From NCBI GenBank assembly GCA_021234155.1, contig JAJEKV010000013.1, positions 12,178,669-12,242,668 of the forward strand: a stretch of 64,000 bases of DNA, written 5' to 3'. Below are positions 26,271-59,640 of the stretch, in pieces (positions within the stretch are counted from its first letter, which is position 1; each line of letters starts with the position of its first letter). The DNA is from Isoetes taiwanensis (lineage: Eukaryota; Streptophyta; Lycopodiopsida; Isoetales; Isoetaceae). A program made the translations under genes and the position numbers. The notes under the pieces are model-generated. The model was not told where the DNA came from. It ran no database searches and saw only the letters and a program-made list of their open reading frames with translations.

Positions 26271-26456
26271 ATTTATTTTACACTTTCTTTTTCAATGTAT
26301 TATTTTACCCTTTTTTTTTTCTAATACCCCGCCTTTTTTCCCGCCCATGCTTGAATTTTAAAATCATTTATTTTACACTTTCTTTTTCAACATATTATTT
26401 TACCCCTTTTTTTCTAATACCCCGCCTTTTTTTCCGCCCATGCTTGAATTTTAAAC
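26271..26456. repeat. 95-bp tandem duplication
   Basis: Two near-identical copies (26271-26361 and 26366-26456) start ATTTATTTTACACTTTCTTT and end CGCCCATGCTTGAATTTTAA. They differ in T-run lengths and a few substitutions. Confidence 0.9.
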
Positions 26457-27459
26457 TTTGGTACATATCTTTGAGATAGAAGTTCATTTGTACCGCTTGG
26501 AATAAACTCCCAATGCCATAGCTCCCACCGGCTTGCTAATCAATTTCGGCTTGGCAACCACGAATCCGTTGAAAGGGAAGAAAGGGAATGGCAGAGCGGC
26601 TATCAAATGTAAGCCCCCATTTGGGGAAATTTCGTTCTTGTTGGATTCTTGCCAGCAGGAATAAGTTTGGCCCTTCAATCTCCAATCGCAAGGGAGCAGT
26701 GAGCTTTCTTGTTAGAAAGCTCAAGAAAACAAGAAATCTGTTGATTCCGATGCAGGAAATGGGTAAGAAACGAAGGGGGCAGACGAATCTTTTAACTTCT
26801 TCATTCCTCCATTTCTACTATCCTTGAAGCTCCGTTGGATCTGCAAGCAGCTCAATCAGCAACGTGGAGGGGATCTGCTGATTTTGATCAAAGAAATAGA
26901 CGAACGACAATTGCTAACACCTTGAAGATCTGAAGCCCCAGCGGATCATGCGCTCACCGAATCCGTCGAAAGGGAAAGGCCGGGTTGAATCGACTTGAAT
27001 GAAGACGCTTTGAATCGGCCGCCTGCGGAACGCCATGCAACGGCGAAAAGGGCAAAAAAAAAAAAAAAAATCCGTGAAGGCGTATGTAGTTTTTGAATCG
27101 GGTAGAAGCACTTTGAATTGGCAAAAGCGTACTTTGAATCCAAGAAGGCACCATCTTTGAATTGGCGTAGCGGCATTTTGAATCTTTTAATCGGCGAAGC
27201 TTATAAAAGAAAGTTTCTCTTCATCCGCTTATAATTAGTTAATTAATTATAAGCTTTGTCTACCGCTCGAACCATGGTGGCGTAATCGCGTAACTTAACG
27301 CCATAGCCGGAGCTTGGCTGCCGTAACTTGGGCTCCGCCGAACTAGTCGCTGGGTCGCCGGAGCCGGGAGTTGGGCTGCCATAGCCGAGCTCGGCTGTCA
27401 AAATCAAGGGCGTCACGGAGCCGAGCTTGAGTTGCATCTCCTCCGCCGCTTCCATAGCG

Positions 27460-27625
27460 GTAACCGGGGCCCGAGCTTCAAATCTCTATTGGCTAACGGT
27501 GCAGAGAAGAACGCACGTGATGTATATGGAGCGATGCCCTTTCACTTTGCTGCAAGATGTGGAAATGTGGAAGCAATGAGTATGTTATGTGATTTACCTG
27601 TATCCACGGCATCAGTATCAGTTCC
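27460..27625 (+). pseudogene. Ankyrin-repeat-like exon fragment in copy 1
   Basis: The frame reads FKSLLANGAEKNARDVYGAM then PFHFAARCGNVEAMSML. This fits one ankyrin unit (LLxxGAxxNAxDxxGxxPxHxAAxxGNxE). It is preceded by GC-rich sequence with GCCGGAGC and GGGCTGCC repeats, and runs into repeats on the right, so it is probably a captured fragment. No start codon or partner exon is evident. Confidence 0.5.
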
Positions 27626-27851
27626 CTCAGGTTATAAGCATCAACTCTACGCTCCATCAAAATTGGAAGCTCCATCAAAATGGTGTTTTCCATCAAAATG
27701 GTGTTTTCCAATTCTCGACTCACTAGTCGAGAAGAGGAGAATGATTTATATTTTTTTATTAGTTATTTATTTAATTAAATTAATTAAATTATTGTTAATT
27801 AAATTAATTATTAATTATATTTTGATAATATGTATTTTTAATCTCAATGGA

Positions 27852-27990
27852 TACGTTCCCTTGCCCCTTGCCCCTTCTTCTCCCTTGCCCCCTTCCCCTT
27901 GCCCCTCTTCTCCCTTGCCCCCCTGCCCCCTTGCCCCCTTCTCCCCCCCTTTCTCACTCCCATCTTCCCCTTCCCTCCCCCTTTCGATCT
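27852..27990. repeat. C/T-only minisatellite
   Basis: About 135 bp almost free of purines on the plus strand except in CCCCTTG units, with irregular repeats of CCCCTTGCCCC and TTCTCCC. It follows a strongly AT-rich stretch of TTAATTAAATTAATT units (27770-27835). Confidence 0.85.
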
Positions 27991-28505
27991 CACCTCGCTC
28001 AACTTTCTGAACTATTTATTTGGAAATTCTGTAAGAAAATATTATGAACCAGTCCTTGTTATATGATGTGAAATTTTGATGTCAATATGAGTCCCATTTT
28101 CAGTCCGAGTCCCAAAATTCAAGATTTGTCCCACTTTAATTAAATACGACTTTGAAATTTCTGAAATAGAAAATGTATCGATTTGCATTAATATCATTGT
28201 GAGCAGATAATCAAGTTGTGTTCGTTGTATCCAAGGAAGGCATAGTGAGCTGGTGATGCGGCTGCTTTGCAAGGTTAGTTGACATGCTTCTTTTATTTAT
28301 TATTTCATGTTTGGAAAGGGTAGATGTCTAAGGGTTTAGAGTAGAATCTTATGTTGTGCTTTCTATATTGAGTCAAAGAGTTGTTTGTGTTTTGTCCCAG
28401 TTAAAGAGTCCAATAAACTTGCCTTTAAGTTGTCCTCTACTATACACGTGTCCATGCCAGTCCTTGCCTAAACTTGCTCTAATTTATTTTTCTATTGTCG
28501 TGTAG

Positions 28506-29739: not shown

Positions 29740-30288
29740 TCTCTTTTCTCTGCGCCGCCTAGCCTAAGCACCTGGGCTGCTGCCTAAGGGCCTAAGCGCC
29801 CAGGGCCCGTTCTAGCTCATGTCCGATTTCGTTCAGGTGGTAGCCCAAGCCCAGCCATACCAACAGCAGATCCCAACGGCCGCAAAGAATGTATTTCGGA
29901 ATAGATCGGTCAGTATAGCAACCTAGCAGATTGGTTCAGTTTGTTGTTTTTCCAGCTTTCAACTTCGTTTGGCACCTCTGTCAGAGTTGGGCTTTGCACA
30001 GAGCCACATATCTTGCTCCCGGTTTTCTTATAGGTGAAAGTCTTGGTCTGCTCAGCCTCAGGTCACTTAATACGATTCCATCTAGCACGATCTTGCCCAG
30101 CACGAGTTGCTTTGTGGCCCGCTCAGGTCATCTGTACAAGGGCCAGCATCAAGCCATCCGATTCTGCAAAGAGGGGTTTCTGTTCTTGCTTTTGCGACAG
30201 GCCATGTACCAGCAACCACATCCCCGATCCCTTCTCCTTTAGCATCAGGTTTTACTTCCCCGACCCCTTCTCCCTCGTGGGCGTCCCC
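29740..30288. other. GC-richer spacer left of the LTR
   Basis: Contains short CCTAAG / GGGCC-rich inverted motifs near 29755-29815. It shows no gene or element boundary that I can place. Confidence 0.35.
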
Positions 30289-31151
30289 TACTGTATACGG
30301 TTGCACTCACCGTACACAAACGAGGAGTTCATCCCCCATACCAGCTCCATGCTAATCTGGGGCCCTCCACATGACACCGCAGAACCGTGGCGGGTTCCGA
30401 GTGGGAAGAGTGGAAGGGTCATTGCACCCCGTCTCCCTCGGGGCCTACCTAGCTGCGGAAGCGTAAAACATACATGTCAGTAGCACATACATCAACATCA
30501 TATGACCATCACGAAGGATGGTCCTCCACATATATCTGCATAGACAAAGATCAAAGCACATCACATAGGGAATCCTACCCAAGGCTCGGACTCAAAGGGA
30601 TGACCGGGCTTTGGTCTCGAGTTCAGTTCGTGCATGCAATTCATGGCAATGGATTTGGCTGGCATAAGAACATGGCATAGGGTTGTCCACTCCATCCGCC
30701 CCTCCCGTGCACACTTTGCGAGTAGGTTGAAAAGTGTTGGGACTGATCAGAGCCCCGGATGCATAGCCAAGAAGGCTATATCCCGGGTTACATCTCCCCA
30801 GCCCGATGGGGCGGTAGGGATCTCTCCCTCCAGAGATCTACAATCCGACTCAAGGTGACTAGAGGGCCACCGCCTGCATCAGGACTTGAACTCAATGGAA
30901 GGTTATATTCACTACCTCACGAGTGTCGAGCCCATGCCTTGCCCACACGGTGGCAAGCCATTAGACCTAGTCACAAAGTGACCCCCAGCAGTACTAACAC
31001 ACCATAGGGGTCGATTCAAGAGTCGAACATGAACCTCCTTATAAGCCGGCCCCGCCCCTTCACCCACAACCGGGTGTGGCTCTTGTGCCACCGTGCCGTA
31101 TCTATAGTGTGCTAGAGAGGCTACTCTAGGAGCATCAACTACAAAGCTTTT
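30289..31151 (-). repeat. Left LTR copy
   Basis: Starts at GGCGTCCCCTACTGT and ends CAACTACAAAGCTTTT on the plus strand; the same sequence recurs at 39662. In element orientation this is the 3' LTR. Its minus-strand ends would be near TGTAGTTGATG and GGGGACGCC, so canonical TG...CA borders are only partly visible. Confidence 0.7.
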
Positions 31152-39661: not shown

Positions 39662-40536
39662 GGCGTCCCCTACTGTGATCACGGTGCACTCACCGCAGGT
39701 ACACAAACAGAGTTCATCCCCATACCAGCTCCATGCTAATACTGGGCCCCTCCACATGACACCGCAACGTGGCGGGTTCCGGTGGGAAGAGTGGAAGGGT
39801 CATTGCACCCCGTCTCCCTCAGGGCCTACCTAGCTGCGGAAGCGTAAACATACATGTCAGTAGCACATACATCAACATCATATGACCATCACGAAGGATG
39901 GTCCTCCACATATATCTGCATAGACAAAGATCAGCACATCACATAGGGAATCCTACCCAAGGCTCGGACTCAAAGGGATGACCCGGCGGGCTTGGGTCTC
40001 CGTTGAGTTCTTGCGCATTTAATTCATGGCAATGGATTTGGGCTGGCATAAGAACATGGCATAGGGTTGTCCACTCCATCCGCCCCTCATTGCACACTTT
40101 GCGAGTAGGTTGAAAAGTGTTGGGACCCGGATCAGAGCCTCACGGGATGCATAGCCAAGGGGCTATATCCGGGGTTACATCTCCCGCCCGATGGGGCGGT
40201 AGGGATCTCTCCCTCCGTAGATCTACAATGCTGACTCAAGGTGACTAGAGGGCCCCAACGCCCGTATCCGACTTGAACTCAATGGAAGGTTATATTCACT
40301 ACCTCACGAGTGTCGAGCCCATGCCTTGCCCACACGCAGTGGCAAGCCATTAGACCTAGTCACAGTGACCCCCGGCAGTACTAACACACCATAGAGGTCG
40401 TTCAAGAGTCAGAACATGAACCTCCTTATAAGCCAGTCTGGCCCCTTCACCCACAACCAGGTGTGGCTCTTGTGCACAGGCCGCATCTATAGTGTGCTAG
40501 AGAGGCTACTCTAGGAGCATCAACTACAAAGCTTTA
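39662..40536 (-). repeat. Right LTR copy
   Basis: Near-identical to 30289-31151, with small indels. In element orientation it is the 5' LTR, followed by the primer-site-like motif. Its outer edge ends CTACAAAGCTTTA and is joined directly to GATATGG, which is the target duplication of the neighbouring LINE. Confidence 0.7.
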
Positions 40537-41450: not shown

Positions 41451-41655
41451 GCGCACCAGTAGTTACGTCTAGTCGCTTCTGTCTGGCTCGAGTCTACGTT
41501 TGCTCTGTTCTCATGAATTTTGGCATTGTTTTTGTTCTGCTTGTACTCCATTGTCTATAATGTTTCGGGCTTATGCCCCTTCTTCTGTATTGGGTCCCAT
41601 AACCCGATTGGGTTTCCGAGGACGATAAAATATTTATCTTTATCTTTATCTTCAG
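40544..41655 (+). mobile_element. ORF1-only LINE insertion with 7-bp TSD
   Basis: GATATGG at 40537-40543 is repeated at 41656-41662. Between them lies an ORF1-like coding part, then the 3' blocks TTGGGTCCCATAACCCGATT and GAGGACGATAAAATATTTATC and a (TTTATC)n tail just before the right duplication. No endonuclease or reverse transcriptase is present, yet the 5' end has the ORF1 start, so this is an internally deleted 'half-LINE' and not a 5' truncation. Confidence 0.75.
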
Positions 41656-41658
41656 GAT

Positions 41659-42519
41659 ATGGTGACATCAAAAACCATGAGTCCTAGAACTTATAAAGAT
41701 AGCAAGGCATCTTCAGTTACACCCGAACAAGAGTCAAAGTCAGCTAGGGAGAGGCGTCTGGCCCGTAAGCGTAAATTAACATGGAGAGCACGAGCACGTG
41801 CAATAGGGGGAGACATGGTTGTGCATGATGACACATGCGAGAGAGATGGAACTACCTATGGAAGTATTGCTAGAAACTTGCAACATGACCTGAATGAGTG
41901 TATGTCAACCCATGCATCAACAAGCATGGATGTTGTGAGTTCGTTGCCAAGTGAGGTTGTTGATGATGAATGTACTGAGGCTCTACCAGCAAGAGACACT
42001 ATGCATGGAATTCCTTTGAACCTTGCTCAAACCCCAGATGCTGTACGACAAAATCCATCTTATGAAACACCTAAGGAAATGGAGTCTAAGCTGGAGAAAA
42101 GCAATCGTCGAGCAAGAAGACGCATGGCCAAGGCTAGAGCATTGGCAAGAGAATTTGAGAATGTTAGCTTAATGCTTGCTAGCACAACAGTGGCATCATA
42201 TTTGACAGACCAGGGTGGGAATGTATTTGATGGACGTAACAATGCAACAATGCTGGGTGAATGTTCTGGACTTGGCGATGTAGCACAGAACACCATTCCC
42301 ATGCAAAGTGAGAATATTGTTGCAGAGGGTGATGCAATGGGAGCGGTATCGCATTTAAATCCTGTTGCAAGTGTGCCAGGTGCACGTGTGTTAGCATGAG
42401 AAGGATGAATCTAAGGCATGGAGAGGCATTCCAGGATGATGATGGTGATGCACCACAAGCTGAGGCATTAATAAGGAGAAGGGTCGGATTTTGGAAAATA
42501 GCTTGGAGTGGTGCAGCTC
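41659..42519 (+). pseudogene. Helitron protein N-terminal region
   Basis: An open frame of 246 residues starts MVTSKTMSPRTYKDSKASSV and is rich in basic repeats (RERRLARKRKLTWRARAR; RRARRRMAKARALAREFE). It stops at 42397, but a shifted frame continues AFQDDDGDAPQAEALIRRR and FWKIAWSGAAPQ up to the insertion site at 42520. The zinc-finger segment that normally follows is found at 55786. Confidence 0.55.
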
Positions 42520-42719
42520 CGCAAAGTCGTATTTAATTAAAGTGGGACAAATCTTGAATTTTGGGACTCGGACTGAAAATGGGACTCACACACCATAAAA
42601 AAAAATTCTGAATTGATTGCTTGAATAGAATTACACATCATACACAAAGAATTGGGTTACTTGTTTTCCTCATAAATTTTACAAACCACTAGTTGAGAAA
42701 GTTTTCAAGCTTCTCAATA

Positions 42720-45658
42720 TTATCTACCCTCATACAATGATATAACATGGAGGTTGCTCATGGCTTTGTCCATCTCCCTTTTTGGGATCTTGTGTGTGTT
42801 GTCCTTTGCAGTGTGAGAACTTGGATATGACCATACCACACACTCCACCAATTCCCTCCTTTGAGGATCAGCATAATTTGCCCTCCACTTCTTCTCCCAG
42901 CAGTCGGTGTATTGCTCCTTCAAGTTGCCCTTCTTGTGTCTCCCAATGGGCTCCCAATATTGAATTTGGAATCCAGGACGCAGGCATAGTGGTGGTTACA
43001 TTAGAGAGTGCCACCCCTAACCATATTGGACAGTCCTCATCATCAGGCCTTACTAGCACAAAGTATCCTTCCTTGATGTCCTCAAAGGGATCCCACTCAG
43101 GAAGATCAAACCACTTCGGCTTTGAGGCCTTACTTTCCACAAACCACTTGGAACCCTTGTTAGGACCCAAGTGAACATTCTTAGACGTGCTTGCTCCTTG
43201 AGAACCCTCCCATCTTGACTCTGGCAAGAACCCGTCTCTTAGCTTCCTCCCACATGGTTGTTCAGTTTCTAAGCATGTCACAACCTTCTCCCAGTACTTG
43301 ATTAGGGAGTCCATTTGATTTTTCTTAAGAGTGGAGGTGTGCTTTCCATTTCGAACATCATCCCAAGTCGTTATGTAATCCTTGATGCCCTTCACTAGTT
43401 GGCTAGAGTCTTTGACAGTCTTGAAGGGAGGTAGTGGTTTTGGCTGCCCTTTAGGAATGAGAACTTCACCGGTAAAGCACCCCCTTTGCCACAACTTCGA
43501 TTCCTTGTGAGGCATCCACGACTTGTCACCTGGTCTCCACTTATATTGCATGATTGGTATTCCATCCCTAACCCAAAACTTGAACTGAAGTGACTTTGTG
43601 TGTCCTGTCAACTGGTCCTTACCATCTAGCAAGTATCCCTCTACAAATGATTTCCAATCTGCAACTTCATCCATCAAGAAAGCCATTGGGTTGGGGTCAA
43701 TGCAGCTCTCAAACACATCCATTAGTTCAGGGAGACTAGTCACGTTTTTCTCTCTTGAGCTTGGTGGAGAAAGTTCAAAGAATCAATCTATATCATCATG
43801 CGTATGCCCAACCATCATGAATCCCACTTTCACAACTTTGAATACTCCCCACCTTTGTCAAGTATGACATTGCCCCAAACATCCATCTATTCTTGTTTTC
43901 TTTCCAACAGTTGTCCAATTGAACACATAGCTCCTCAGGCAGTGGTTTCTCAAGTAAGGGAAAATCATCCCAAGTCCTCCTTGATTCACTAGACACCTTG
44001 GATGTGAGCTTTTTTATCTGCCTTTGGTAACAAAGCGGTTGATCATCCATCAAAGCCTCAAAAATGGGTGCTGAAGGGGAATACCTCCTCCCTTCTATCG
44101 ATCATTTCTCTAGTGTTCTCAAGCACTTGAAAATAGAGCCCACATGGAAGTTTGGATCATCCCTCCATAGATCAAGCACAAAATGACCATATGTTCCAGT
44201 TCCATGACCATGTGTTAAGACACCCGCCAGACTTACTTTCATCTGAAAAGCGTTTTGACAACGCTTGGGTAAAGGATCTAGCTTTGGCAAGAAAGTCTTG
44301 TGTTGGTCATCATGAATAATACACAAAAATTTGTCCGGCTACATCTCAGAAAATGTTCTCCACTGTCAATACAACTGTCTACATGATATTTGATCCCTTT
44401 GGTGATCTGCAAATTGCTCCCTAATTGCCATTCTTTCTTTCTCTATTGCAGTTGATGCAAGTATATCCTTGAGTTGAATGCAAGTGTTGCACTTTGAGAA
44501 TGGCATGTGTTGCAGGACACTCACGTCTGAGAAGTGAGTGCTCCATAACTTGCTGAAATGTGATTGAGAAAGAGGCCTACCTCTAGTAGTTTCTAGGATG
44601 GAGTTGACCTCCTTAAGGCACTCCTTTTGGATATAGTGTTGTGGCAACACCCTTTGCACCACTCGCACACCGTGCTCGTTTACCTTCGACTTGTGGGGCA
44701 TAGATTGAGACATGTATCTCACAAAGCTCTCGAAGACTGCAATGGCCTTGAGAGTATTTGCTCTAGGTTTCAAAGTGAGTGCATTACCATGTTGGAACAA
44801 ACTGTGCCCTTTTCTAACCTGCTCCCAGTATCTGTAGAATGAAGACTTGCTCACCCCAAGAATCCATCTCAATGCTCTCATACATACCTTCATGCCCCTC
44901 AATTGATATAGTAGCCTTCCTGTGTTTTCATCATAGCTGGAATTCCTACACAAGGAGTAGATGAAATTAATCCTATCTTTTTGAAGCTGTCCAATGTATT
45001 GGGACCTTATCTGCACGAGGTCGTCCACACTGTACTGCACTGTGCAATCTAGGTTGCAACACTCTTGTCCCCTAATTGCCTCTAGGTTTTCGTTGGTTGG
45101 GGCCATACTTTCCATCCTTTCTAAATATTTGTCACTTCTAGGCCTCTTGGGCACCCGTGGATGCCTTTTATGAAAAACATAGCGTCTCTTCCTTGTGATC
45201 AAAGGATGCTCATCGACCACCAAATCTTCCACATGGCCTTGGGTGGGCCTTGGGGTATGTAGTTCAGTAGGGCATTCCAGACTATCACCATTCTTGTATG
45301 TAATATATCTAATTGGCCATCTCAACTGAGTTTGGGACTCCAGCAACCTAGAGCACACAATGCAATCACTAGAGCTTCCCTGGGACATGATTGTATCAAC
45401 TTCGATAAGAAGCTTCACAATGCCAACTCCAAGATGATCATCTCCTAGCCTTTCATCATTCACACTATCAAAAGGATCAACTGCAGTTATTATGCCCTCT
45501 GCAAATACCGTCTCGTTGCAAGGGTGCAACAACAAGCAACCCATCTTCCTCCATTGGAGCCTAGGGCAATGGCCTGTGCTGGGCTTCCTTGGCTCCATTT
45601 TGCTCATCTCACATGCTCCCTGAATGAAAGAGCACACATTAAAACCATATACAACCAT
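42720..45658 (-). pseudogene. DUF7869-like transposase candidate, decayed
   Basis: Pieces on the minus strand run 45658-44366, 44326-44102, 44053-43786, 43743-42868 and 42923-42720. The protein likely starts near 45607 (MSKMEPRKPS). The first part has VQYSVDDLVQIRSQYIG and SKSSFYRYWEQVRKGHSLFQ, a DNA-binding-like module, and SMPHKSKVNEHGVRVVQRVL. The core has CIIHDD, PKRCQNAFQMKVSLAGVLTH, VQLDNCWKENKNRWM and MMVGHTHDDID, which fit an RNase-H-like acidic triad. The C-terminus has EGYFVLVRPDDEDCPIWLGV, a BAH-like strand pattern. This is the repeated non-seed-plant family I know as DUF7869. In-frame stops at 44368-44366 (TGA), 44341-44339 (TAG) and 43785-43783 (TGA) plus a frame change near 42900 break it. 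It is the best transposase candidate of the element. Confidence 0.72.
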
Positions 45659-45875
45659 ATATGAATGAGCACTATAGCCATATAACCATTAGAAACCATA
45701 TAACCATTAAAAACCATTGAAATCTTGGCTAACATTAACCATTAAGAAGCATTAAAACATTATAACCTTATAACCATTAAAAACATTAAAACTTTTAACA
45801 CTAACATTTAACATTAAAACATTTAACATTAACCATTAAAAAGCATTAAAACATTATAACCATTAAAACATTGGC
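45640..45875. repeat. Low-complexity ACATTAAAACATT / CCATTA tract
   Basis: AT-rich, irregular repetition of AACCATTAAAA, CATTAAAACATT and TATAACCATT just upstream of the DUF7869-like gene start; it covers the likely promoter region. Confidence 0.75.
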
Positions 45876-45895
45876 TTCCCCGAATTCATGGTGTC

Positions 45896-46250
45896 TTGGC
45901 GTGGCGCCGTCGGCGCACATCGACATGGCCCGCGTCAACAATCCGGTCGCGGATGGCATGCCCACGCTGGCGTGACTCTAGGAGTGTCATAAATGCCACT
46001 TTTTCGAGGTTCGAGGATGCAGCCCGAAATAACTACACCCTCTACCTCTTCTCCGCGACCCTATTCCTTCCATTCCTCTTTGTCTTCCCTGTTCCAAGAC
46101 TCGTGGCGCTTTGTTCCCCTGTTCGCCTTTGGCACTCGATCGTGAGGCATTTCCGGGCAATCTTAGCGGATCGCGACGCATCCGGTGACGAGGTTTTGGC
46201 TCAATTTGAGTTAGCCAGTGAAAAGTACTTCCTAAGAAGAAAGTGAGAAA
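45896..46250 (+). other. Coding-like segment of unknown nature
   Basis: GC-richer stretch with open frames. The second half (LWHSIVRHFRAILADRDASG, EVLAQFELASEKYFLRRK) looks like a real C-terminal exon followed by TGA. No family recognised. It is flanked by repeats on both sides. Confidence 0.3.
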
Positions 46251-46839
46251 CCTTTTACGTAAGTTTTTTTATATTCTTATCTTTGCTTGTTTATTGTTTT
46301 TGCAATTCCTTTACTCTTGTCTTTGCTCCTATTATTTTTTAGAGGCTCTTTATATACCACGATACATTTTCCCATGTTCAAACCGACAAATCCTTACTCT
46401 CGCTTTGCAAGCCTTTGTAGCAAAATAGAATCGAACTTCTGCTGACTTCCTCCTCATCCAACAAATCTCGGTATTTTTTTTTTTTTTTCTCAATATTTTT
46501 CTCATTTGTCTGCTTTGTTTCAAAGGCGCTTCCTTTGCTTTCCTTTTGATTTGCTTTCTGATTTTGTGCTTTCTTGTGTTTAGTTGTTGTTTACTTGAAT
46601 ACCTTGTACTGAGGGCATCGGTGTTCTTAGATGCTAATAGTAGTGGCAAGCACCCGACTTAGGAATCCTGAGAGATATGAAGAAAAGTATTGCATAAAAG
46701 TAAGAGAACTGTCTATGATTCATAAAAGAACATAACTATACATGAAATTGCTTTACAGAAACTTAAAATAGGAATTACCATACAGATTGAAAATTTCACT
46801 CACAGCATATCCTCCTTTGTAGGAGAGGTGCATAAGGGA

Positions 46840-47055
46840 ACCTGGCTTTCTCGACTGGCGAGTTGGGAATCCCTCAGCTTGCCAACAATCAAGAAAGGGC
46901 CTTATTCTCGACTTCATGAAGTCGAACTTCGACTTCGCGAGGCGAGAACAGGGAATGTACACTCTGGATTGTTGGCTGGTTGAGGGATTCCCGACTCGCC
47001 AGTCGAGAATAACGCCATTCTTGCATTCTCGACTCGCGAGTTGAGAATGTCATAC
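46840..47055. repeat. Cluster of variant palindromes
   Basis: Four or more palindromic blocks of the TTCTCGACT...AGTCGAGAA type with altered centres or arms: 46847-46870 (TTTCTCGACTGGCGAGTTGG), about 46902-46925 (centre CTTCATGAAG), about 46985-47010 (CCGACTCGCCAGTCGAG) and 47027-47048. The first and third are joined by a ~60-bp repeated spacer (GGGATTCCC / GCCAACAATC) in opposite orientation, forming a larger inverted repeat. Confidence 0.85.
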
Positions 47056-47119
47056 CTAGCCAATGCCCCTAACCTGTCGACAACACCTGCTAATCTCACA
47101 CACACCAGTGCCGGCTCTA

Positions 47120-49080
47120 GTGCGCCACTCTCCTTCAAACTATCTTGCTCGGATATTGCGAAGGGAAGTGGCTTTTTCGATCACCGCAGGCCTCGGCCAA
47201 TGACCAATTCTCCGGTGGTATGGTCGCAAAGGGCCTCTACCCGCCGAGATCGTCTCCTTCGAACCATCTTCGTCGAATATTGCGAAGGGGATGGGCTCGG
47301 ACTGGGTGGAGGCCTCTACAACTAACCACAGGGAAACCACAGAGCTTGCTGTCTGCATTCTCGCTCCTTGATCGAGAATGCCCTAACCACCAAAGACTCC
47401 ATGTGTACTATTCGAGTTCTCGATGGCTAAGGCATTCTCGACTTGCCAGTGAAATCACGGCAACAACCAACACTTGCATTCTCGACTTCGCCGTCCCGAG
47501 AATCATAACTCACCAATTCTCACATGCATGGTGATGGCCTCCCACCGGTCGAGCCACTCTCCTTGAACCATCTTACCGTGGTGAATATTGCGGGGAGGGA
47601 GGCTGGGCTGATGGGACCTCTACAACAACCCGCGGGGAAACCCGAGCTTGCTGTCTGCATTCTCGGCTGTGAGTAGAATGCCTAAACTCCAACCAACCTC
47701 CCATGTGTACTATATCGGGGTTCACCGATGGCTAGGCATTCTCGACTTGCGAGTGGGAATGCGAAAAGAAAACCAACACTTGCATTCACCGACTGCGCGA
47801 AGTCGAGGAATCCCTTAACCAATTCCAATTCTCCCCTTAATTATGGTGGCCCTGCGACCGGTCGAGCCCTCTCGCCCGAACCATCTTAAACCGAATATTG
47901 CGAAGGGAGGGGCTGGTTGGGTGGGCCTCTAACTAACCCGTGGAAACCACTGAAGCAGCCGTCAAGATTCTCGGCCACAGCCCAGAATGCCTAAAACTGT
48001 ACCAACACTCCATGTACTATCCGGAGTTCTCGATATATAATTTCTAATTTCAAGTAGCCTATAATGCGTAGAGGAAGTTAACACTTGCATCTCTCATCAT
48101 AGTCGAGAATCCTTTACAACTACTCCTCTGCGGTATGGACGTTAGTGGGTCTTCTATTCCGCCAGTCACTCTCCTTCGAACCATCTTCGCTGAATATTGC
48201 GAAGGGAGGGGTCGGATTGGGTGGGAGGCCTCTACAACTAACCATTGAGAAACCACTGAGTTGTCTGCATTCTCGGCTCAAGAGTCGAGAATGCCTTAAA
48301 CCGATCAACACTCCATGTGTACTATCCGAGTTCTCATTGGCTAAGGCATTCTCGACTTCATGGTCGAGAATGCAGAGAGGAAGCCAACATACATTCTCGA
48401 CTCTAAGTCGAGAATCCTTAACAAACCAATTCTCCTCATTGTATGGTCGCGGTTGGCCTGATTTCCGTCAGAGCCACTCTCCTTCTAACCATCTTCGTCG
48501 AATATTGCGAAGGGGAGGGGCTCGGACTGGGTGGAGGCCTCTACAACTAACCACAGGGAAACCACTGAGGGGTGAAAGCATGCTAGGGTGTACCATCTAA
48601 AGTTCTTTTTAGGGAGTGCAAAACTACCCAGAAAAGTACCCAGTACTGGGTACTGGGAACTTGCATAAATGTCTCAATAAGCAATAAGTTTGAGTGTTGA
48701 TTCATTCATTTTAATCTTTAATAGTATTGTTACCCACTAATACTATAGATTAACATGTTATTGACCTTCAATCCAAAATTTTTTAATTGATTTTAATGGG
48801 AAGAAAAAACAAAAAGTACCAGTTTTAAAAGTACCCAGTGGTGGTACTTTTGAGGGTTCCAAAAGTGGTACACCGTAGCATGCTTTCACCCTGAGCTTGT
48901 CTGCAGGCCTTTGGGTCTTAGCACAGGCCTCTACAACTAAGCACTTTGTATTCTCCTGTTTTTAGTCCCAAGTGCCTCTAGCCTGTCTGAGCCACTCTCC
49001 TTCGAACCATCTTCCTCGAATATTGCGAGGAGTGGTTCCGACTGGGTGGAGGCCTCTCCGACTAACCACAGGAGGATGCA
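47120..49080. repeat. ~305-bp satellite array with embedded palindromes
   Basis: A conserved box (GCCACTCTCCTTCGAACCAT, then CTTCGTCGAATATTGCGAAG) recurs at about 47125, 47251, 47551, 47866, 48167, 48474 and 48990. Units of 300-315 bp also contain GGACTGGGTGGAGGCCTCTA, CACCAACACTCCATGTGTAC and two or three TTCTCGACT...GTCGAGAA palindromes. The last interval is 516 bp because a 322-bp MITE is inserted. Open frames here are artefacts of the repeats. Confidence 0.88.
48570..48891. mobile_element. 322-bp MITE inserted in a satellite unit
   Basis: Left end starts GGGTGAAAGCATGCTAGGGT and the right end is its reverse complement over 26 bp with one mismatch. TGAG flanks both sides (48566-48569 and 48892-48895). 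Inside are many GTACCC / GGGTAC motifs (CCCAGTACTGGGTACTGGG). No coding capacity. It interrupts the satellite at ACCACTGAG|CTTG, which is continuous in sister units. Confidence 0.9.
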
Positions 49081-49217
49081 TTTGAACCGCATCTCCAGGG
49101 CCTTAGACCTAGCCTGATCTATATACAACATTCGAAGAAAACATTCCAAGATAAAACACACCTAAAACTGAACTACAAAATAACCTACACAAAATAACAG
49201 GCATCTCTGAAACTCAC

Positions 49218-49520
49218 CTCTTCACGCAGTAATTCCTTGGGCCATTGTATGACAGACCCCGCAGCTTCACCGAGAGTCTTTGCTTCTTCTGTCGGTCTCA
49301 TCAAGAGTGCACTCGCATCTAACACTTGTATCAATGCGATTCTCGTGTATCCCCGTTCCATGGCGCTGCAGTGTAGCATTCCCGTGCCTGGCAGCTCCTC
49401 TCCGCTTGCTACCTTAACTCTGTGCTCATCGATCAAATCAACTACTTGCAATAAGACGCGCGGTTAGAAAAAATACACAGAGCAAGGCGCTGTGAGGAGC
49501 TTACCGCGTCGTGGCGCCAT
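49218..49520 (-). pseudogene. Two-exon fragment of a plant-transposon-type protein
   Basis: Minus strand: ATG at 49520, exon 49520-49505 (MAPRR), a 60-bp GT-AG intron, then exon 49444-49218 ending at a GTGAGT donor. It reads VVDLIDEHRVKVASGEELPG, GYTRIALIQVLDASALLMRP and TLGEAAGSVIQWPKELLREE. The T.GEA.GS...WPK.L motif is what I recall from DUF8039-type domains of CACTA-associated proteins. The next exon is lost in the satellite array, so it is a fragment. Confidence 0.4.
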
Positions 49521-51189
49521 TCCAAAAGTCGCTTACAGTCGATGCTCGCCTCCCAACTCTAAGTCGCCAATGCCGCAGTGAAGATAAGCTACACTGCGCT
49601 CACTAAGTCCCTGGATGTGATTCAATTTCGAAATGGTGTTTGGGCGGGCTAAAGCCGACCGTGCTGTACCCTTAGCCCGCTTTTTTTCTTAAATGATTGT
49701 ATGTCCTTAAATTCAAATTTAAGAACACGCCCGACCTTTTTTACTTGCAGTCCTAAAACCTCCAACGCGCGGAGGAGGCTTAATTTACAGAAGGGTTCGA
49801 GCAGGAAGAAGATGCGGGGGCATACAGACATGACGACTCCGTCCAAGAAGCGAGGCGCCGGAGCGGAAGCTGGTTCTAGCGGCAGCAAGAGGAAAAAGAC
49901 AGGCGCTCTAGGTGAGCTCTGAGGTTTTTCTTTGGTCGGAATACCTTTACTGATCCATCCTTTGGAAGTGCAGCATTCACCGCGGACTCACTAGTGATCA
50001 CTGGCCGAACTCCGTTCTTCGTCATCGAGGGATTGGAGACAGAGCTTCTTGACACACCAGCAGATTCTTGGTGGTATGTCGAGGTATCAACAAGTGGGAA
50101 GGAGAAAGATCTGTTTCTCCACCAAAGGGATAAGAAGAGCTCCGGAGACAAGTACAAGAAGGTCGGCGTTGTGCTCTCCGTCTCTGCGCCAGATTCGAAG
50201 CATCTAACAATGTATGTGGAAGACTGCCAGAAGAGTAAGTTCTACCACACCAAGAAATTATCAGTTTCAAATTATTCTCACTCTTCAATGAGCAAGGCGA
50301 AGGGCACCGACAAAAGGCCGGCGCCTTTAAACTGTCAGAACCTTGGGTGGAAGGATCTGGAAAGGATGAAGGAGGCCGGAACCCTAACATCCAGGGAGCT
50401 TGGAATGGAGATTTCCAGAGTCAGGGAAAAACTGTTCAACACGGGGAGCTTCACTTCCAGTGCGCTGAAGACTCTACAGCATTCGGCAGTTACAAGGGAA
50501 GTTGTGGTTCATAAAGAAAAATCTCCGGACAGGACCTCAGATGCAGATGATATCACACGAGAGGAATCAGATGATGAAGCAGACGAAGATATGGTCGACT
50601 CCCCATTAATGGATCCAGATGAGCAGATCAGGATTTCACAGAGAGGGGCAATGTAAAATGGAGCGGCTAACCCGCTCAAGATATATCGATTGGGAATATC
50701 ACACAAGCTGCTGCTGGACATCAGACGCCTGAAGGTTTGCACCGGAGAAGCCGTCTTGTTCAACCACAGGGAATTTAATCCAGCACACATGCTGGAGATT
50801 CTGAACCTGATGGTGCGACATCCTGTTGCAGATCCAATGCCTGCGGATGTCATACCTTTCGCCAGAATCGACCCGGTCGGTTGTTGTTGGTGGAAGTCCG
50901 AGGAAGAGCCGGAAGGAAAAGACGTCCGGTTACGGGTAGTAGACGGTCAAGATTCGGAGAGCGCGGCGCAAGTATTGCGCACGGAGAAGGAGGTGCCGCA
51001 AGGATCAGGATAGATATGCCAAGCGAGTCGCGAGTTCTTTCGGCGGAGGCGCCCAAAGAACCGAGTTGGCCAAGATTATGCTGCGCGAACACAATAGCGG
51101 TGAGTGCCGGTTACATAAGGTAAATAACTCTCGATTCGGTGGTTTTTCGATTTCGCGAGTGAAAGCCCTAGCATCCTATCATTTTCTTT

Positions 51190-51861
51190 TTTTTCACTGG
51201 GGTTTTCGACTCCAGTCGAGAAAGCCGCGGAAACACTGAAAAATCAAAGGATGCGGAGCTTTTCGACTTCGAGTCGAAAAAACAAGTAAAAAGAAATGGA
51301 CATTAAAGGGACTTTTCGACTGTGAAGTCGAGAAACCCGAAGGCGATAAAGAATATTCGAGATTAATGGTCGAATTTACCGAAAGCATCGAGCCTTCCCA
51401 TCCTTTCTTCCTCGGCCTCTTTGGGCAATGTCGCTTAGTTTCTATTCTAAGTTGCATCGTTCGAAGAGGCGCGGCAAGAAAGGATTTGGGAATGAGCAGT
51501 GCTTTCACTCTGGCCTTCACTCTCGCACCATGTTCTCTCCTCTCCCAAGGGTATTCTCGACTCGCGAGTCGAGAAAGTCCCTTGAATAGAAACCTCTCAC
51601 TTTCTCGACTCGCGAGTCGAGAAACCCAAGGGTAAAAGAGAGAACATTGGAGATTAATGGCTGAAGAGCAAAAGCATCGAGCTTTCTCAATCTTTCTTTC
51701 CCCGCCTCTTCGGGCAATGTCGCTTAGTTTATATCCTAAGTTGCATCGTTCGAAGAGGCGTGAAAGCAAAAATTTGGGAATGCGCGATGCTTTCGCTCTG
51801 GCCTTGATTCTCCTATGTTTTCTCCTCTCCTTGAGGGTATTCTCGACTCGCGAGTCGAGAA
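51190..51861. repeat. Palindrome cluster with a ~290-bp duplicated unit
   Basis: Perfect 22-bp palindromes at 51554-51575, 51602-51623 and 51840-51861, and looser ones near 51207, 51260 and 51318. A surrounding unit (CATCGAGCYTTCYCAATC, CGCCTCTTYGGGCAATGTCG, TTGCATCGTTCGAAGAGGCG, TCTCCTCTCC..GGGTATTCTC) occurs twice, at about 51360-51580 and 51660-51862. All lies between exon-like blocks of the FCP1-like gene. Confidence 0.9.
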
Positions 51862-53542
51862 ACCCCCTGCATCCTCCTATTTAGTGTTTACTTCCATGCT
51901 CTAACATTGGGACATTTACTGAATGCAGCCCGTATCCTGACCAGATCATACACGCTCGGCAACATTGGAAAGCATTGGGTTGTCCTCAGCGTCCTAAAGG
52001 AAACAGGGCTCCCTCGGATAAGTGGAAGACCTTTGAGTCACTCTGCAGATACTTTTCTTTGGAAGGCCGTGAAGATGATGAGGGGAGGATGAAGAGGAAA
52101 AGAAGAAGAGAACACCAAGAAAGGGCGGGGAGTCTCTCTCGGACCAATATGACCTCATTCTTAGCACCGATGCGATTCCGGGAGAAATGGGTGAGATATG
52201 GGCTCAATGGACAAGAGGCAAAGTTTGAAGGACAGCAATGGAGAATTTCCATGCAGGCGGACCCAAAGTTGTTCGACGGGCAATTTATGAAAAGGATATA
52301 GGGCCGGACCGACAAGGAAACGCTTGATCTAGGCGAGAATCACGGATGGAACAATCCTACTAAGGAAAAGTAGAAGCTCAAAAATGCGGGGCGCAAAAGG
52401 ATTATGCCAGTCCTAAAAAGAGGCGGCGTGCGTTGGAAGAAGGCATCATCACGGAGTTACTGCAATGTTGCTTCCAATGAATACCACGACTTTGATTATT
52501 ACAAGGAAAATTTGCCCTTGATGAGGAAGACATGAAGGAATTGAACCGTCTATGTCAACCCCTACATCAACACAAGCTAAAGCGTAGCGTCAAAACCCTT
52601 CCCTTCCACGAGCGTGCTATGGCAATTCTGAAGAGGAAGCTTGGATTGGGGGTGGTCCCATTTAAGGTAGATGATAGCTCCCCTCCATTTTACGGTAACA
52701 TTGGGACACAAGGGATTTGGTGGTGCGGGCTGGCACGGGGGCCCGGCACTATTTGTCATCAACATGATCGAAGACCCCACCCTTTTTTATGACAAAGTGA
52801 CATAGAGCCTTTGGTACAAGACGTGTCTGGACATGACCGACCTGGATACTTTCAGTTTCCTTGTCTTTTACATGGCGGGCAATGGGACAACCGCTTTTGT
52901 CTCCCAATGGGCGGTGATATTAACTTCACCAACAAGATCTTGTACTCCATATCGAACTTGAACATGAGTGTAGACTTGGCTTGCCGAAGGCACCAAGCTT
53001 TTGCCAATATAGTTTTGGTTTTGGTTTCAAGATCGGTGTAGACTGGACAAGTGGTGGTCTAGCGAACATCATTATCTCGGACAGGTTCATGATTTCGCAA
53101 GAGCAGATGGAACCCTGGAAGGGCGACAGATTTATGGAGGATGTGCCATCGATGGACAAAGTCAGCAATGATGGTGCGACAGGTCCTATACATAGAATTC
53201 CTATCCGGCCAAGAGTTATCAAGTACTTCATAACCGGCTTGGTGAGGAAGATCAAATTGTATCGCGAGTGGTACATGAATGGCTGTTCTCTCGGGGGCTA
53301 TATCCGTGGTTGGAAATAAGGACATGGTTGAAACCATTCGGTCATACACGGATGCGCTTCATGAGCATTTCAAAGGGAGGAAGACAAATGGAAGCGATGG
53401 GGCGATGATGACGAAGACAAACACGAGAGCGAAGGAGAGAAACATGGCGAAGAAGAGAATGTCGAAGGTTTAGACCCGAATCTTTGCTTGGAACTAATTC
53501 TTGAGAATCTGAGATTGAGGTGAGTTCTTGCTCTCTCGGTGT

Positions 53543-53613
53543 TTCTCGACTCGCGAGTCAAGAAACCTTTCGGGACTAACTTTTTTTTCCATTCTCGACT
53601 CGCGAGTCGAGAA
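53543..53613. repeat. Two palindromes in the intron before the FCP1-like exon
   Basis: 53543-53564 (one mismatch, GTCAAGAA) and 53592-53613 (perfect). They lie in a 130-bp intron with donor GAG|GTGAGT at 53520 and acceptor CATTTCAG ending at 53649. Confidence 0.9.
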
Positions 53614-54603
53614 AACTCGTTTCCTATCTGACATCTCTCATCATTTCAGGGAGATCGAAGTCAACGACTCCGGATCATTGACAATATCTAGTGGCGGTTC
53701 ACGTCGCGAGGAGGACAATGCACTCCCCAAAGACAATCAAGAGCAAGACACTGCGGGCAGCCAGAAAGGAGCTAACAAAATAATGATCCCGCATATAGAT
53801 CCCGATGAACCGGAAATATGGTCAGAGCCAAACTCCAACTGGGATCCAGCTGGTCCAACCAAGCTTGTAATATTTGACGTCAATGGAGTATTAGCTGCAG
53901 TATACCATGATAAAGACGTTCCTGAGCTTAACACCTCGCAGATCCCGACGAAGACGGAGCATAAAATCGTCTATCCGAGGCCTAGAGCAAAGGAAATTGT
54001 TGAATGGTGCCTGGAATGGGGATTCGAAGTGGCCATATGATCTTGTATGGCAAAGAAAAATATTGTCAATTTTCTTGGTGTTCTCGGCCTTCCAGTTTTG
54101 AAGTTCAAGTTTGTTTGGGGAAGCGAAAGGGTCGAGCATGTGTCAGACCTCGATCCAGCCATCACAAAGGGGAAGCATATTATGGTGAAAAGGCTGGACA
54201 TGGTTTATGAACAATTCCCGGACTATGGCAAACACAACACGCTGATCATAGACGACTCCGCCTACAAGTGCTATCATAACTCGCAAAATACAATCATTGC
54301 TAAGACTTATCGACCAGAAGAGTATGAGATGGATAGGTGGCTGTCTTTCGGACTTTGTCCTATCTTGGCAGAATCCCTCTTTGCCATTCGTGTGGCCGAT
54401 GTGATTACGAACTATCCGAGCCTCAAGGAACCCGATCCAGAGAGCCGCGCGATCATGAAAGCTATGGACGACAAATATTTTGGTGATCAAGAAGAGTGAC
54501 CTCTGCTTTCAGATAGTCAAATTGTGTGAATATTGTAAAGAAACGTGAAGAAATGTACTATGTTTTGTAATGAATATACATGTATATTGATTTTTCGCTG
54601 GCT

Positions 54604-54890
54604 TTCTCGACTCGCGAGTCGAGAAAGACATGCTTGTCCTGTTGATGAAACCATTTGTATGTTTGTTTGTGTGACTGGATGCAGCCGTAATCTATTATGA
54701 TAATGGTTGTACATTGGGTTTCCTGGGCCTTTCTCGACTCGCGAGTCGAGAAAGGCACTGCTTGTCTCGTTGACGCAACCATTTGTATGCTTCCATGTGT
54801 GATTGAATGCAACCATATTCTAATGGGAATGGTTGTACTTTGACTTTTCCGGGCCTTTCTCGACTGCGAAAGAGAAAGACTACTTTTCAG
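54604..54890. repeat. Three ~125-bp units, each with a palindrome
   Basis: Palindromes at 54604-54625 and 54731-54752 are perfect; the one near 54857-54882 is shortened. Each is followed by CTTGTC..GTTGA.G.AACCATTTGTATG, then TGTGTGA.TGGATGCA, then TAAT..TAATGGTTGTAC, giving a tandem array just after the FCP1-like stop codon. Confidence 0.88.
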
Positions 54891-55017
54891 CGTGATTGGA
54901 TGCCGTTACATGGAATGAATGTTCTCTATTGTAATTGGATTTCACCATTCTTTTCTTCGTTTTGACTAATGGCACCGTAATTGTTAATCATAGACTCTCC
55001 TTGCTCCAGGTGGTTCA

Positions 55018-55508
55018 GCCACAGATCCGACACCGGCAAAAAGATCCCGTTCGGGGCATCACAGACCGGGACGCTCCGACGGCAATGAGATCCTCTCAAG
55101 GCGGAAGAGATACCGATTCGGCACGTGATCCCGCCACGCTACACTCTTGCCGGCCTTTGGGATAAGGTTGCTCGTGAATCAGGCGCCATGCACACGCGCT
55201 TCGGGATAAAGAAGAGGAGAAGAAATTAGAGAGTCCCGAAAGCTCAAAGCATCTTGCAAGCATTGCATAACATCCACGGAGGTTGGGGAAGGAGCATATT
55301 CGATGAAAAGCTGCGGGAGGAGAGTGGAGAAGTCGGGTGGACAGGTCAGCCGGTGGCTCCAGAGGCATTCCACACTCTTCAGGTTGTCCCCAAGGCTTAC
55401 AGTCGGCGTGAAGAAGCGCCGCAAGTTAATCCCCTATGGTGGACCACCTACCACGATGATGTAACTGTAGTGACAGCAAGACCGCCATGGTCTCTGCGTC
55501 CGATGTAA
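55018..55508 (+). other. Coding-like last exon(s) near the B-end
   Basis: After an acceptor (CTTGCTCCAG at about 55009) the sequence is GC-richer. The best frame (55254-55508) reads ALHNIHGGWGRSIFDEKLRE, GQPVAPEAFHTLQVVPKAYS and WWTTYHDDVTVVTARPPWSL, ending in TAA. The upstream half is open in a different frame (GGSATDPTPAKRSRSGHHRP). I do not recognise it. An AATAAA-like AATAAAAA follows at about 55541. Confidence 0.35.
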
Positions 55509-55529
55509 AATACATTGTACTTATTCAAT

Positions 55530-55756
55530 TTATTAATAAAAATTCTTTTTCAACTAGAGCTTTGGTTTCAATCTTTAATGAATTTCCTTTGTTTTAGTTG
55601 CATTGTTCTTGTTCTCGACTCGCTATCCAAGGAAAACTGGAAGAAAGCTTGGATGCACAATAACAGACAAAAATTCGAATTAAGGATAGTTTCGGGTCGG
55701 GGTGCTCCTTTTCGTGTAAATTAACAGGGTTCCGAAAAAAAGTGGGAATGGAATGA
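55530..55756. repeat. B-end subterminal region shared with copy 1
   Basis: Its reverse complement aligns with 24596-24820: TTAATTTACAC, AAAAGGAGCACCCCGACCCG, ATTTTTGTCT, GTGCATCCAAGCTTTCTTCC, TGGATAGCG.GTCGAGAACA and ATTCATTA.AG.TTGAAACC. About 85% alike by eye over ~225 bp. Confidence 0.85.
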
Positions 55757-55785
55757 GTCCCACTTTAATTAAATACGACTTCACA

Positions 55786-56605
55786 ATATTGCGATGCAGG
55801 AAGGATTAGCAAAAAATGCAAGCATTGTGGGGCCTTGCTGTGGAAGGACAAACTTGGTACATTTTGTTGTTCAAATGGGAAGGTTTCATTGCCACTTTTC
55901 CCGACTCCCCCTCCTGCTCTCATGGATCTATACACACGAAGGGATGACATTGGAAAGGACTTTCGCTCTGGTATTAGAAAGTATAACAATGCTCTTGCAT
56001 TTGCCTCATTGGCTGTTAAACTGTTGATATGCGTCTTCGAATACCAAGTGCAAACCTGCAGGATTCGCGTAGACGACAATATAGTGCTCCATCTGCAAAT
56101 GAGATAGCAATATTAATGCCACTTGACTGTGGCCCAGAAGACAATCTCAGAGACATTGTCGTACATTCAAAGGAAGGAGGAATAAAGCATATTGACGCAC
56201 TATGATGCTCTACACTTTGCACTCATGTTCCCCTATGGAACTGATGGCTGGCATACAGGGATCCGACAAATGAACAGATCAAAGTGCGTAACCATCTTGC
56301 AATTCTATAAGTATCACCTACAGGTACGCAGTGGCACATTATCACCACTTCATATCGCAGGGAGGTTGTTCCATGAGTACATCTGTGACATGTTTGCTAA
56401 GATGTGGCAGTCAAGATTGGGTTGGATACAACTAAATCAGGCTCAACTACGTAGTGAGTTGTATAATGGTATTGTGGATTCCACTGGGCACGATGGGACC
56501 TCCATTGGGCGTCGTGTCATTCTACCAGCAACATTTATTGGAAGCACACGTTACATGACTCAGCTCTACCAAGATGCGATGGCAATTGTTCGAGAGCTTG
56601 GCTGA
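55786..56605 (+). pseudogene. Helitron zinc-finger and Rep N-terminal region
   Basis: Right after the TIR transposon the frame reads YCDAGRISKKCKHCGALLWK then GTFCCSNGKVSLPLFP, a Cys-rich motif typical of plant Helitron proteins, then YNNALAFASLAVK. After a break, ALHFALMFPYGTDGWHTGIR, VTILQFYKYHLQVR and GRLFHEYICDMFAKMWQSRL belong to the Helitron_like_N domain. The frame ends at a TGA (56603-56605), where relatives carry a K or R before the PDLFIT motif. Confidence 0.85.
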
Positions 56606-58339
56606 CCAGATTTATTCATCACTATGACTGCCAACCCAAAGTGGCCAGAAATACAAAGGGAACTCATAAATGGCCAGGACCCATCTGACAGGCCTAATTT
56701 AGTAGCCCGTGTCTTCTATTTAAAGTTGAAGGAGCTATTAGAGATTGTGTCTCACCATGGCATATTTGGCCGCATTTCTGCCAGGATTCATGTCATTGAT
56801 TTCCAGAAGAGGGGCCTTCCTCATGTGCATCTTCTTAACATATTGTACCAGGAGGACAAGCCACTGACAGTCGAGGATATAGATAAAGTGATTTGTGCGG
56901 AGATTCCAGACAAAGAATCTAACCCTGAGTTGTATGAGGTGGTGACACGTCAGATGATGCATGGCCCCTACGACCCTACGTATCCCAATGCTCCCTGTAT
57001 GGTTGATGGGGTGTGTAGTAAAGGGTACCCAAAGCAATTTCTAGAGCAGACCATGATTAGCAACGGGTACCCACTCTATAGACGTAGAAATGATGGGAGA
57101 ACTGTCTATCGAGATGGCATGAACATGGACAATAGATGGCTTGTACCCTATAATCCGTGGTTATCCTGCTATTTTAGATGCCACATCAATGTCGAGATAT
57201 GTGCTCATATTAAAGGAGTTAAATACTTATACAAGTATATCTATAAGGGTCCAGACATGATATCAGTGAACTTAGGACAAGGTTCTGGAGAGAGTGTCGC
57301 CACACCGAACGCCATAACAGATGAGCATGACAAAGTTCAGCAGTATGTCAATGCCAAATACTACTCTGCCTCTGAGGGCGCATGGTGGTTGTTCAAGTTT
57401 GGGTTGCAAGAACAGAATCCTCATGTCGTGCGCTTAGCAGTTCACTTTCCTAATGAGCAACCAATACTTTTTGATGAGAATGCAGACTTAGATGAAGTGA
57501 TTAACAATGCACATGACACCACTCTCATGGGTTGGTTTAGGGTGAATGCTGCAAATGAATACCCAGTGTCTCGAACTTTGTTCTACCATGACTTTCGCAA
57601 GAGCTTTACTTGGAGCAAGGCGACATACAAATGGACAATTCGTCAACGTATTCAGGTTATGCCATCTGTGTGTAGAATGTACTTTGTGACTCCCTCACAG
57701 GGTGAACGATTCTATTTGCGGATGTTGCTAAGCAATGTACCCGGAACTACGTCTTTTGAAGATTTGAGAACTGTTGACGGTCATTTGTGTGAGATGTTCA
57801 AGAATGCATGCATCAAGCGAATGATTGTGAATGATAATTCAGAGTGGCTAGAATGCCTACGAGAAGCATCATCATGGGGTATGCCACGTCAATTGCGACA
57901 CTTATTTGCATCAATTCTGTTGGAATGTAACCCATTGTATCCACTTGATATTTGGAAGGAGTTGAAATATAGGATGGTTGAAGATTTTCTAGACCAGGTT
58001 GCTTATGATGCATATTCCAAGACAGGTCAACTGAGTCAGTATGCTATTGACATGGCACTAATGGATGCGGAGGATCATATGCAATCGGTTGGAAGGAGCC
58101 TAGCAGAATTAAGCTTCAACTTACCAGAAACTGTGCTAGACACAACCACACTATTCCAGGAGGAAATGATGTATGTGAGTATGGATAAAGTCCTATCTGA
58201 TTCCGAGAAGTTGAACATTGGTCAACGGTCAGTTTATGATGTTGTTCTCGACCATGTTATCGATAAGACTGGTGGTGGGGTCTTCTTCGCGGAATGGCCC
58301 CCGTGGAACCGGAAAACATATCTATATAACACTCTCTAG
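56606..58339 (+). pseudogene. Helitron Rep (HUH) domain and helicase N-terminus
   Basis: Continues in frame after the TGA with PDLFITMTANPKWPEIQREL. DFQKRGLPHVHLL contains the HUH metal-binding pair (His-Val-His, residues 67-69 counted from the ATG at 56624). CAHIKGVKYLYKYIYKGPDM contains the paired catalytic tyrosines. Such proteins nick and join DNA during rolling-circle Helitron movement. The later part (FYLRMLLSNVPGTTSFEDLR; LRHLFASILLECNPLYPLDI) leads to the helicase. The frame ends in a TAG just past a degraded Walker A. Confidence 0.9.
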
Positions 58340-59640
58340 GGGGTATGCGTGCAAGGGGTTGGATTGCTCGGCGGTTGCATCTTCCTCGATATTGCGTCGA
58401 TTATTTCTTTGCAAGGTGGTCGAACAGCTCATTAAGCGTTTAAAGATACCCATAGGGGCACACAAGGCGTCTACACCGCAACATTCCACGGCGTTTAATT
58501 GGCAAGACTCATTCGAGCATGTCGGTTGATTGTATGGGATGAGGCACCAATGATGCACAAATGGATATTTGAGGCAGTGGATAGAATATTGAGAGATGTG
58601 ATAGGCAATGAGCAGACCCCGTTTGGTGGGATTCCAATGCTATTGGGAGAGGATTTCCGACAAATACTACCCGTGCGTGGTTCCTAAAGGTTCGCGCACA
58701 CAAATTGTAGAAGCTTCTCTAAAGCGTTCGTATATCTGGGATAGTGTGAGAGAATATAAACTGACAATCAACATGCGCGTCATGAATGCATTGGGTTTAG
58801 ATGCGCTTGAACAACAAGCATTTGCTGACTACCTACTAAGTATAGGAGATGGCCGAGGACCAACCTTTCCGGAGAAGGGTCTTGATATGGTGCATCTCCC
58901 GCGAGATATATGTCTTGGCTCAGATGATGTGGATGATTTAATTCAGGACATATTTCCTGATATCCAACTGGATACATCGTGCTATACTATCGCCTTTGAA
59001 CTATTTTGTTGATGAGATCAATAAGAAGGTGGGGTCTCTGATCCCTGGAGAGATGACAGATTACTTTAGTGCTGATCGAATCATAGACACAGATGGCCAA
59101 CAAGCAGGTCTATATCCCATTGAGTTTCTTAATGCACAAACTCCAAGTGGTGTACTGCCCCACGAGCTAAACCTGAAGGTGGGAATGATCGTAATGTTGT
59201 TGAGGTCTACATCATTTAAGAAGGGCCTGTGCAATGGAACACGATTGATTATACGAAAGCTAGGAAAACGTGTCATTGAGGCAGAGATAGTAACTCGGAC
59301 ACACATTGGTGATACTGTGCTCCTATCACGCATTCCAATTGTGCCTACCGATTCAGGTTTGCCATTTCAGTTTGAAAGGGTGCAATTCCCTTTGCGGCCG
59401 GCCTTCGCCATGACCATAAACAAGTCCCAGGGCCAGACAATTCATAAGGTGGGGATATATCTTCCAAAGCCTGTCTTTACGCATGGACAATTATATGTGG
59501 CATTCTCAAGGGTACAAAATTGACAAGGAATTCGGGTTGCTATCAAAGACCCACCATCCATGCCTCAAGAAGACGCCAATACAGTTTCAAGGTTCACAAG
59601 GAACGTGGTTTACACGGATGCTTTGTGATGGAGGTAAGTG
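58218..59640 (+). pseudogene. Helitron PIF1-like helicase, broken
   Basis: The Walker A is readable only in a shifted frame as NGPRGTGKH (near 58295-58320), one base short of the expected GKT. Walker B appears as LIVWDEAPMMHKWIFEAVDR and GGIPMLLGEDFRQILPV. The C-terminal motifs follow in other frames: YKLTINMRV, FLNAQTPSGVLPHELNLKVG, LRPAFAMTINKSQGQTIHKV and GQLYVAFSRV. A tail GIRVAIKDPPSMPQEDANTV continues past a TGA at 59521. At least three indels are needed to explain the frame changes. Confidence 0.88.

Follow-up and report, generated by a model that had tools for sequence, protein, structure and literature searches.

Sola transposons, as described in the part of PMC10741241 considered here, carry an aspartate-type (DDD) transposase, produce a 4-bp target duplication and end in inverted repeats of 11 to 1124 bp, with the moss P. 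patens named in that description; a Physcomitrella Sola1 is also found in a table of PMC9033089, a source likewise considered in part. Here, we analyzed a 64,000-nucleotide stretch of the Isoetes taiwanensis genome (contig JAJEKV010000013.1, positions 12,178,669 to 12,242,668; hereafter the window, with positions counted from its first letter) that holds two elements with the same inverted ends. With a probability of about 0.7, we read them as land-plant members of a family of DNA transposons that move by cut and paste and most likely belong to the Sola superfamily. The moss relative of the transposase and a TORTIFOLIA1-type match in the window (both below) point to such a host.

Copy 2 (13,258 bp, 42524 to 55781, transposase gene on the minus strand) and copy 1 (3,582 bp, 24571 to 28152, plus strand) lie in opposite orientation and together make up 26.3% of the 64-kb window, on which the count of two copies rests. 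Their 25-bp arms are 100% complementary, with the A-end repeat at 42524 to 42548 (plus) and the B-end repeat at 55757 to 55781 (minus) in copy 2, and the B-end repeat at 24571 to 24595 (plus) and the A-end repeat at 28128 to 28152 (minus) in copy 1. The 20-base start of the end motif is present four times in the window, forming two inverted pairs, and perfect 25-bp ends that occur twice are not chance. Counted from the tips, the copies have in common an A-end of 65 bp, all identical (42524 to 42588 versus 28088 to 28152), and a B-end with 90% identity across 240 bp (24571 to 24809 versus 55781 to 55544). An earlier note on this DNA, made from the letters alone, had described two opposed copies with perfect 25-bp inverted ends, which the complementarity of the arms confirms, and had put the shared ends at 64 and ca. 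225 bp, close to what we measured. Under looser alignment, the A side extends to ca. 150 bp in copy 1 (70% across 180 columns, including the identical 65 bp), and on the B side there is a weak (61%) second match that overlaps in part. The complete identity of the A-ends, against a difference of ca. 10% between the B-ends, could reflect constraint or conversion.

Copy 2 contains a transposase gene that is predicted to consist of two exons on the minus strand. Exon 2 (42725 to 45619), which covers the catalytic DUF7869 region and the C-terminal part, is decayed. Read through with X at stops, it matched Pfam DUF7869 (PF25273) with an E value of 7.6e-39 (133.7 bits; gathering cut-off, 26), while the unbridged pieces gave E values of 1.1e-9 (38.7 bits) and 2.1e-4 (21.4 bits, below the cut-off). 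Thus, the comparison of internal proteins with transposase profiles that the earlier note had proposed led to a described Pfam family. When 26 relatives were compared with the window by tblastn at an E value of ≤1e-3, 24 matched, all within 42732 to 45625 save one at 49403 to 49227, where residues 6 to 73 of relative P0008 found an N-terminal part (E value of 6.6e-6, 34% identity). The latter match falls in predicted exon 1 (49218 to 49463), which is bounded on the 5' side by the beginning of its open frame, not by a proven start. A 3,598-bp intron (45620 to 49217, minus strand) is predicted to be spliced so that the two exons are joined in frame; its donor (GAG followed by GTGAGT, exon end at 49218) and acceptor (TTCATTCAG followed by GG, exon start at 45619) are canonical. 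To judge from the sequence, the gene is dead: its frame changes twice and is interrupted by four in-frame stops, and the first catalytic motif, inspected by eye, is short of two residues present in the relatives. Given that this decayed transposase gene is present, the 13-kb copy is likely the former autonomous form, as had been suggested before, whereas in copy 1 the same search found no transposase match.

The protein search gave 26 relatives at an E value of ≤10, including a protein of the moss Ceratodon purpureus, and 25 at an E value of ≤1e-3. In the alignment of 24 of them (P0025 and P0026 were omitted as distant), all 24 matched DUF7869, and R486, D509, D512, Q652, D654, K661, V688 to H692, and D694 (P0001 numbering) were invariant. 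Predicted models of two relatives have an RNase H-like order, with the conserved acidic residues at RNase H positions, so that D509, D512, D654, and D694 would form, as a residue pattern only, a DDD-type transposase site. The catalytic part of the transposase is thus like the domain of the Pfam entry; the entry gives no function, whereas the domain described here sits between inverted ends. That the DUF7869 gene is a mere passenger, and the 25-bp ends part of another repeat, we consider very unlikely: the presence of the gene in one copy of two would suit a passenger, as would the fact that no ends were seen for the relatives, but ca. 200 bp is all that separates the gene from the A-end, and in each copy the two end regions occur as a pair.

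With regard to the target site, copy 1 is flanked by TGAA on both sides (24567 to 24570 and 28153 to 28156) and copy 2 by CGCA (42520 to 42523) and CACA (55782 to 55785), as previously noted. Among the lengths of 2 to 12 bp compared, the copy 1 flanks match in full at 4 bp only; at this length those of copy 2 agree in three of four bases, with CpG changed to CpA as the single mismatch, and they would also agree in two of two if the duplication were CA alone. From base composition, four of four would arise by chance with a probability of 0.004, and three or more of four with one of 0.054. With these values and two copies, a 4-bp duplication is supported, short of proof; the earlier claim of a DNA transposon family with 4-bp duplications is borne out, with the duplication itself graded as probable. 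A further clue comes from the landing site of copy 2, where a Helitron-like protein starts at the right flank (PF14214 in 56606 to 58339, E value of 1.5e-28). When one 4-bp copy is removed, the left and right flanks become a single open frame, with the junction after residue 63 and 11 codons upstream of a CxxCGALLW motif. There are at least 1175 Helitron-type relatives, and a simple pattern finds CxxCGALLW in 51 of the 120 listed; among the alignments listed for the joined frame (53), 10 start no later than residue 60, and 5 of them no later than residue 50. The frame restored in this way would weakly favor a duplication of 4 bp. Remnants of the Helitron-like protein extend from the right edge of copy 2 onward (55784 to 59523).

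Several features are like those of Sola as described in the cited part of PMC10741241: the aspartate-type residues, the probable 4-bp duplication, an element size within the stated range, occurrence in moss and, twice, perfect inverted ends of 25 bp, which is inside the range of 11 to 1124 bp. In contrast, palindrome arrays and gene fragments, both present in the elements studied here (see below), go unmentioned in the cited parts of the Sola descriptions (PMC10741241, PMC9033089). Sola membership is therefore likely, judged by description alone and not by sequence; the earlier note's view that the family has no place in a known superfamily is not supported, and the note itself had named Sola as an example. 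DUF7869 elements might instead be a superfamily of their own apart from Sola, also with 4-bp duplications, an aspartate-triad enzyme and chromatin-reader-like domains. This seems unlikely, as the probable duplication length, the types of residue and end, the size and the presence in moss all fit the partial Sola description in PMC10741241.

Two other placements fare worse. CACTA elements have CACTA-type termini and 3-bp duplications. Relationship to CACTA/EnSpm would be in keeping with an N-terminal domain weakly like the TNP1/EN/SPM family (PF03017, in 3 of 24 relatives at an E value of ≤0.1 [best, 6.6e-4]; residues 10 to 68 of P0001 at 0.023, below the cut-off). However, the termini begin with AAGTCG, a length of 3 bp fits neither copy (one of three and none of three flanking bases agree) and DUF7869 was found in all 24 relatives, so that CACTA was rejected and even a CACTA/EnSpm-related element is the most improbable of the alternatives considered. 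Ginger was rejected too, given that the Ginger-type rve (integrase-like) domain had no match in the window read-through at an E value of ≤1 and was absent from the 10 families listed for the 24 relatives at an E value of ≤0.1. Academ elements carry an XPG nuclease/helicase protein; no such protein was found among the element frames scanned against Pfam, which were part of all frames.

Past the ends, palindromes and short weak matches are the sole links between the two copies. The 3.6-kb copy had been taken for a derivative of the 13-kb one; it does stand as a non-autonomous relative, but its largely unrelated interior does not fit a simple deletion derivative. Copy 1 has an ankyrin-repeat open frame (27327 to 28007, plus strand; PF13637, E value of 4.5e-6, 27.3 bits versus a cut-off of 22.7), and copy 2 has a fragment of a NIF/FCP1-type phosphatase gene (53519 to 54496, plus strand). 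The Pfam match of the latter is in 54041 to 54496 (PF03031, E value of 8.1e-5, 22.8 bits versus a cut-off of 21.8), and the upstream part was joined to it by frame and eye, with one stop between. Both fragments are probably captured host DNA, to judge from these matches. Plus-strand open frames at 49916 to 53316 of copy 2, three of which were scanned against Pfam with none above the cut-off, may represent either captured DNA or a second gene since lost. Pack-TYPE elements, including Pack-CACTA, likewise have inverted ends around host gene fragments (part of PMC13317346), although the transposase of the present elements differs; in the main text of that review, Sola has 0 occurrences. Gene fragments between these ends would place the group among the plant-gene shufflers.

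Mechanistically, we propose that the DUF7869 transposase binds the shared subterminal regions as well as the 25-bp ends and that its putative RNase H-like aspartate active site (D509/D512, D654, and D694 in P0001) cuts both ends. Joining of the cut ends to staggered target DNA would then yield the duplication, presumably 4 bp as a rule. Under this scheme, copy 2 would be a dead, once autonomous element and copy 1 one mobilized in trans, with largely unrelated DNA between ends of the identical type. An unnamed Pfam domain is in this way connected with defined transposon ends and, probably, a 4-bp duplication, a link that would make it easier to file many unannotated proteins as transposases.

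An unexpected feature of the elements is that their noncoding interior is studded with palindromes of one sequence family. The 22-bp palindrome TTCTCGACTCGCGAGTCGAGAA was taken from the elements themselves, chosen after being seen, and with up to 5 mismatches allowed it has 19 sites in the window, all 19 within the two elements (binomial, 1e-11); of these, the two in the shared B-ends (24720 and 55612) are half sites. Since many are in arrays, the sites are not independent; for ca. 8 separate clusters, we ourselves estimate the chance at 0.263 raised to the power of 8, or ca. 2e-5. The half site TCTCGACTCG, used as a test free of selection for pairing, occurred with ≤1 mismatch 39 times inside the elements versus once outside (both strands of one palindrome counted), and with ≤2 mismatches it had an inverted partner nearby in 43 of 80 cases inside versus 1 of 15 outside (both strands counted). 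Copy 1 has an array with a period of 66 bp (25364 to 25679, sites at 25503 to 25662) and a site at 27712 to 27733. In copy 2, sites are present within the predicted intron (46848 to 48370, with further half sites) and upstream of the transposase gene, as a cluster at 51313 to 51861 (three exact copies plus a fourth with 5 mismatches) and clusters at 53543 to 54752 (again three exact copies, plus a fourth with 1 mismatch). This confinement to the elements is a new observation.

When genome contigs were scanned with the alignment of the relatives, 49 stretches matched, giving three loci (L001 to L003). L001 is a 4,327-bp contig with an unbroken 947-residue frame matching DUF7869; it was binned with a cyanobacterium, and we infer a eukaryotic, perhaps moss, origin. 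A different palindrome taken from L001 itself, TTTAGCTCGANTCGAGCTAAA, has 12 sites there with ≤7 mismatches, none of the 12 within the gene and some on either side of it (34 to 509 and 3573 to 4296), whereas 200 shuffles averaged 1.1 sites and never exceeded 5. By eye, the L001 and window palindromes have the 9-base core CTCGACTCG in common. The arrays, which thus recur in other letters around an independent DUF7869 gene, are unexplained and testable. Tentatively, and with less than even confidence, we suggest that many element-specific palindromes in noncoding DNA, with a CTCGACTCG-type core, are a family trait of DUF7869 transposons, evolving with the transposase and retained despite replacement of the interior. 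That they serve transposition or regulation as internal transposase binding sites or hairpins is a guess.

Some results weigh against the transposon reading or its parts. The long left-flank frame at 41602 to 42399 had no match better than an E value of 0.83 among the best 120 of 1175 Helitron-type relatives. D694 is just nearly invariant once P0025 is included (25 relatives). Palindromes counted in general, relative to the maximum of 10 shuffles, were in excess in copy 1 (8 versus 4) and copy 2 (19 versus 9) and also in one of three outside stretches (12 versus 8, 12 versus 13, and 2 versus 6), and were not enriched in L001 (3 versus 4) or L002 (2 versus 4). The element-specific feature is the palindrome sequence family, not palindromes in general. 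The excess in L003 (6 versus 4) was owing to a tandem repeat; this 89-bp repeat, with two palindromes, lies downstream of another DUF7869 relative (L003, 4984 to 5146).

Elsewhere in the window, we found a direct repeat of ca. 870 bp with 91% identity (30280 to 31150 and 39662 to 40535), a minus-strand fragment of a reverse transcriptase (10371 to 11003; PF00078, E value of 1.4e-23) and a match to a TORTIFOLIA1-type gene (2060 to 4129; PF24714, E value of 1.2e-25).
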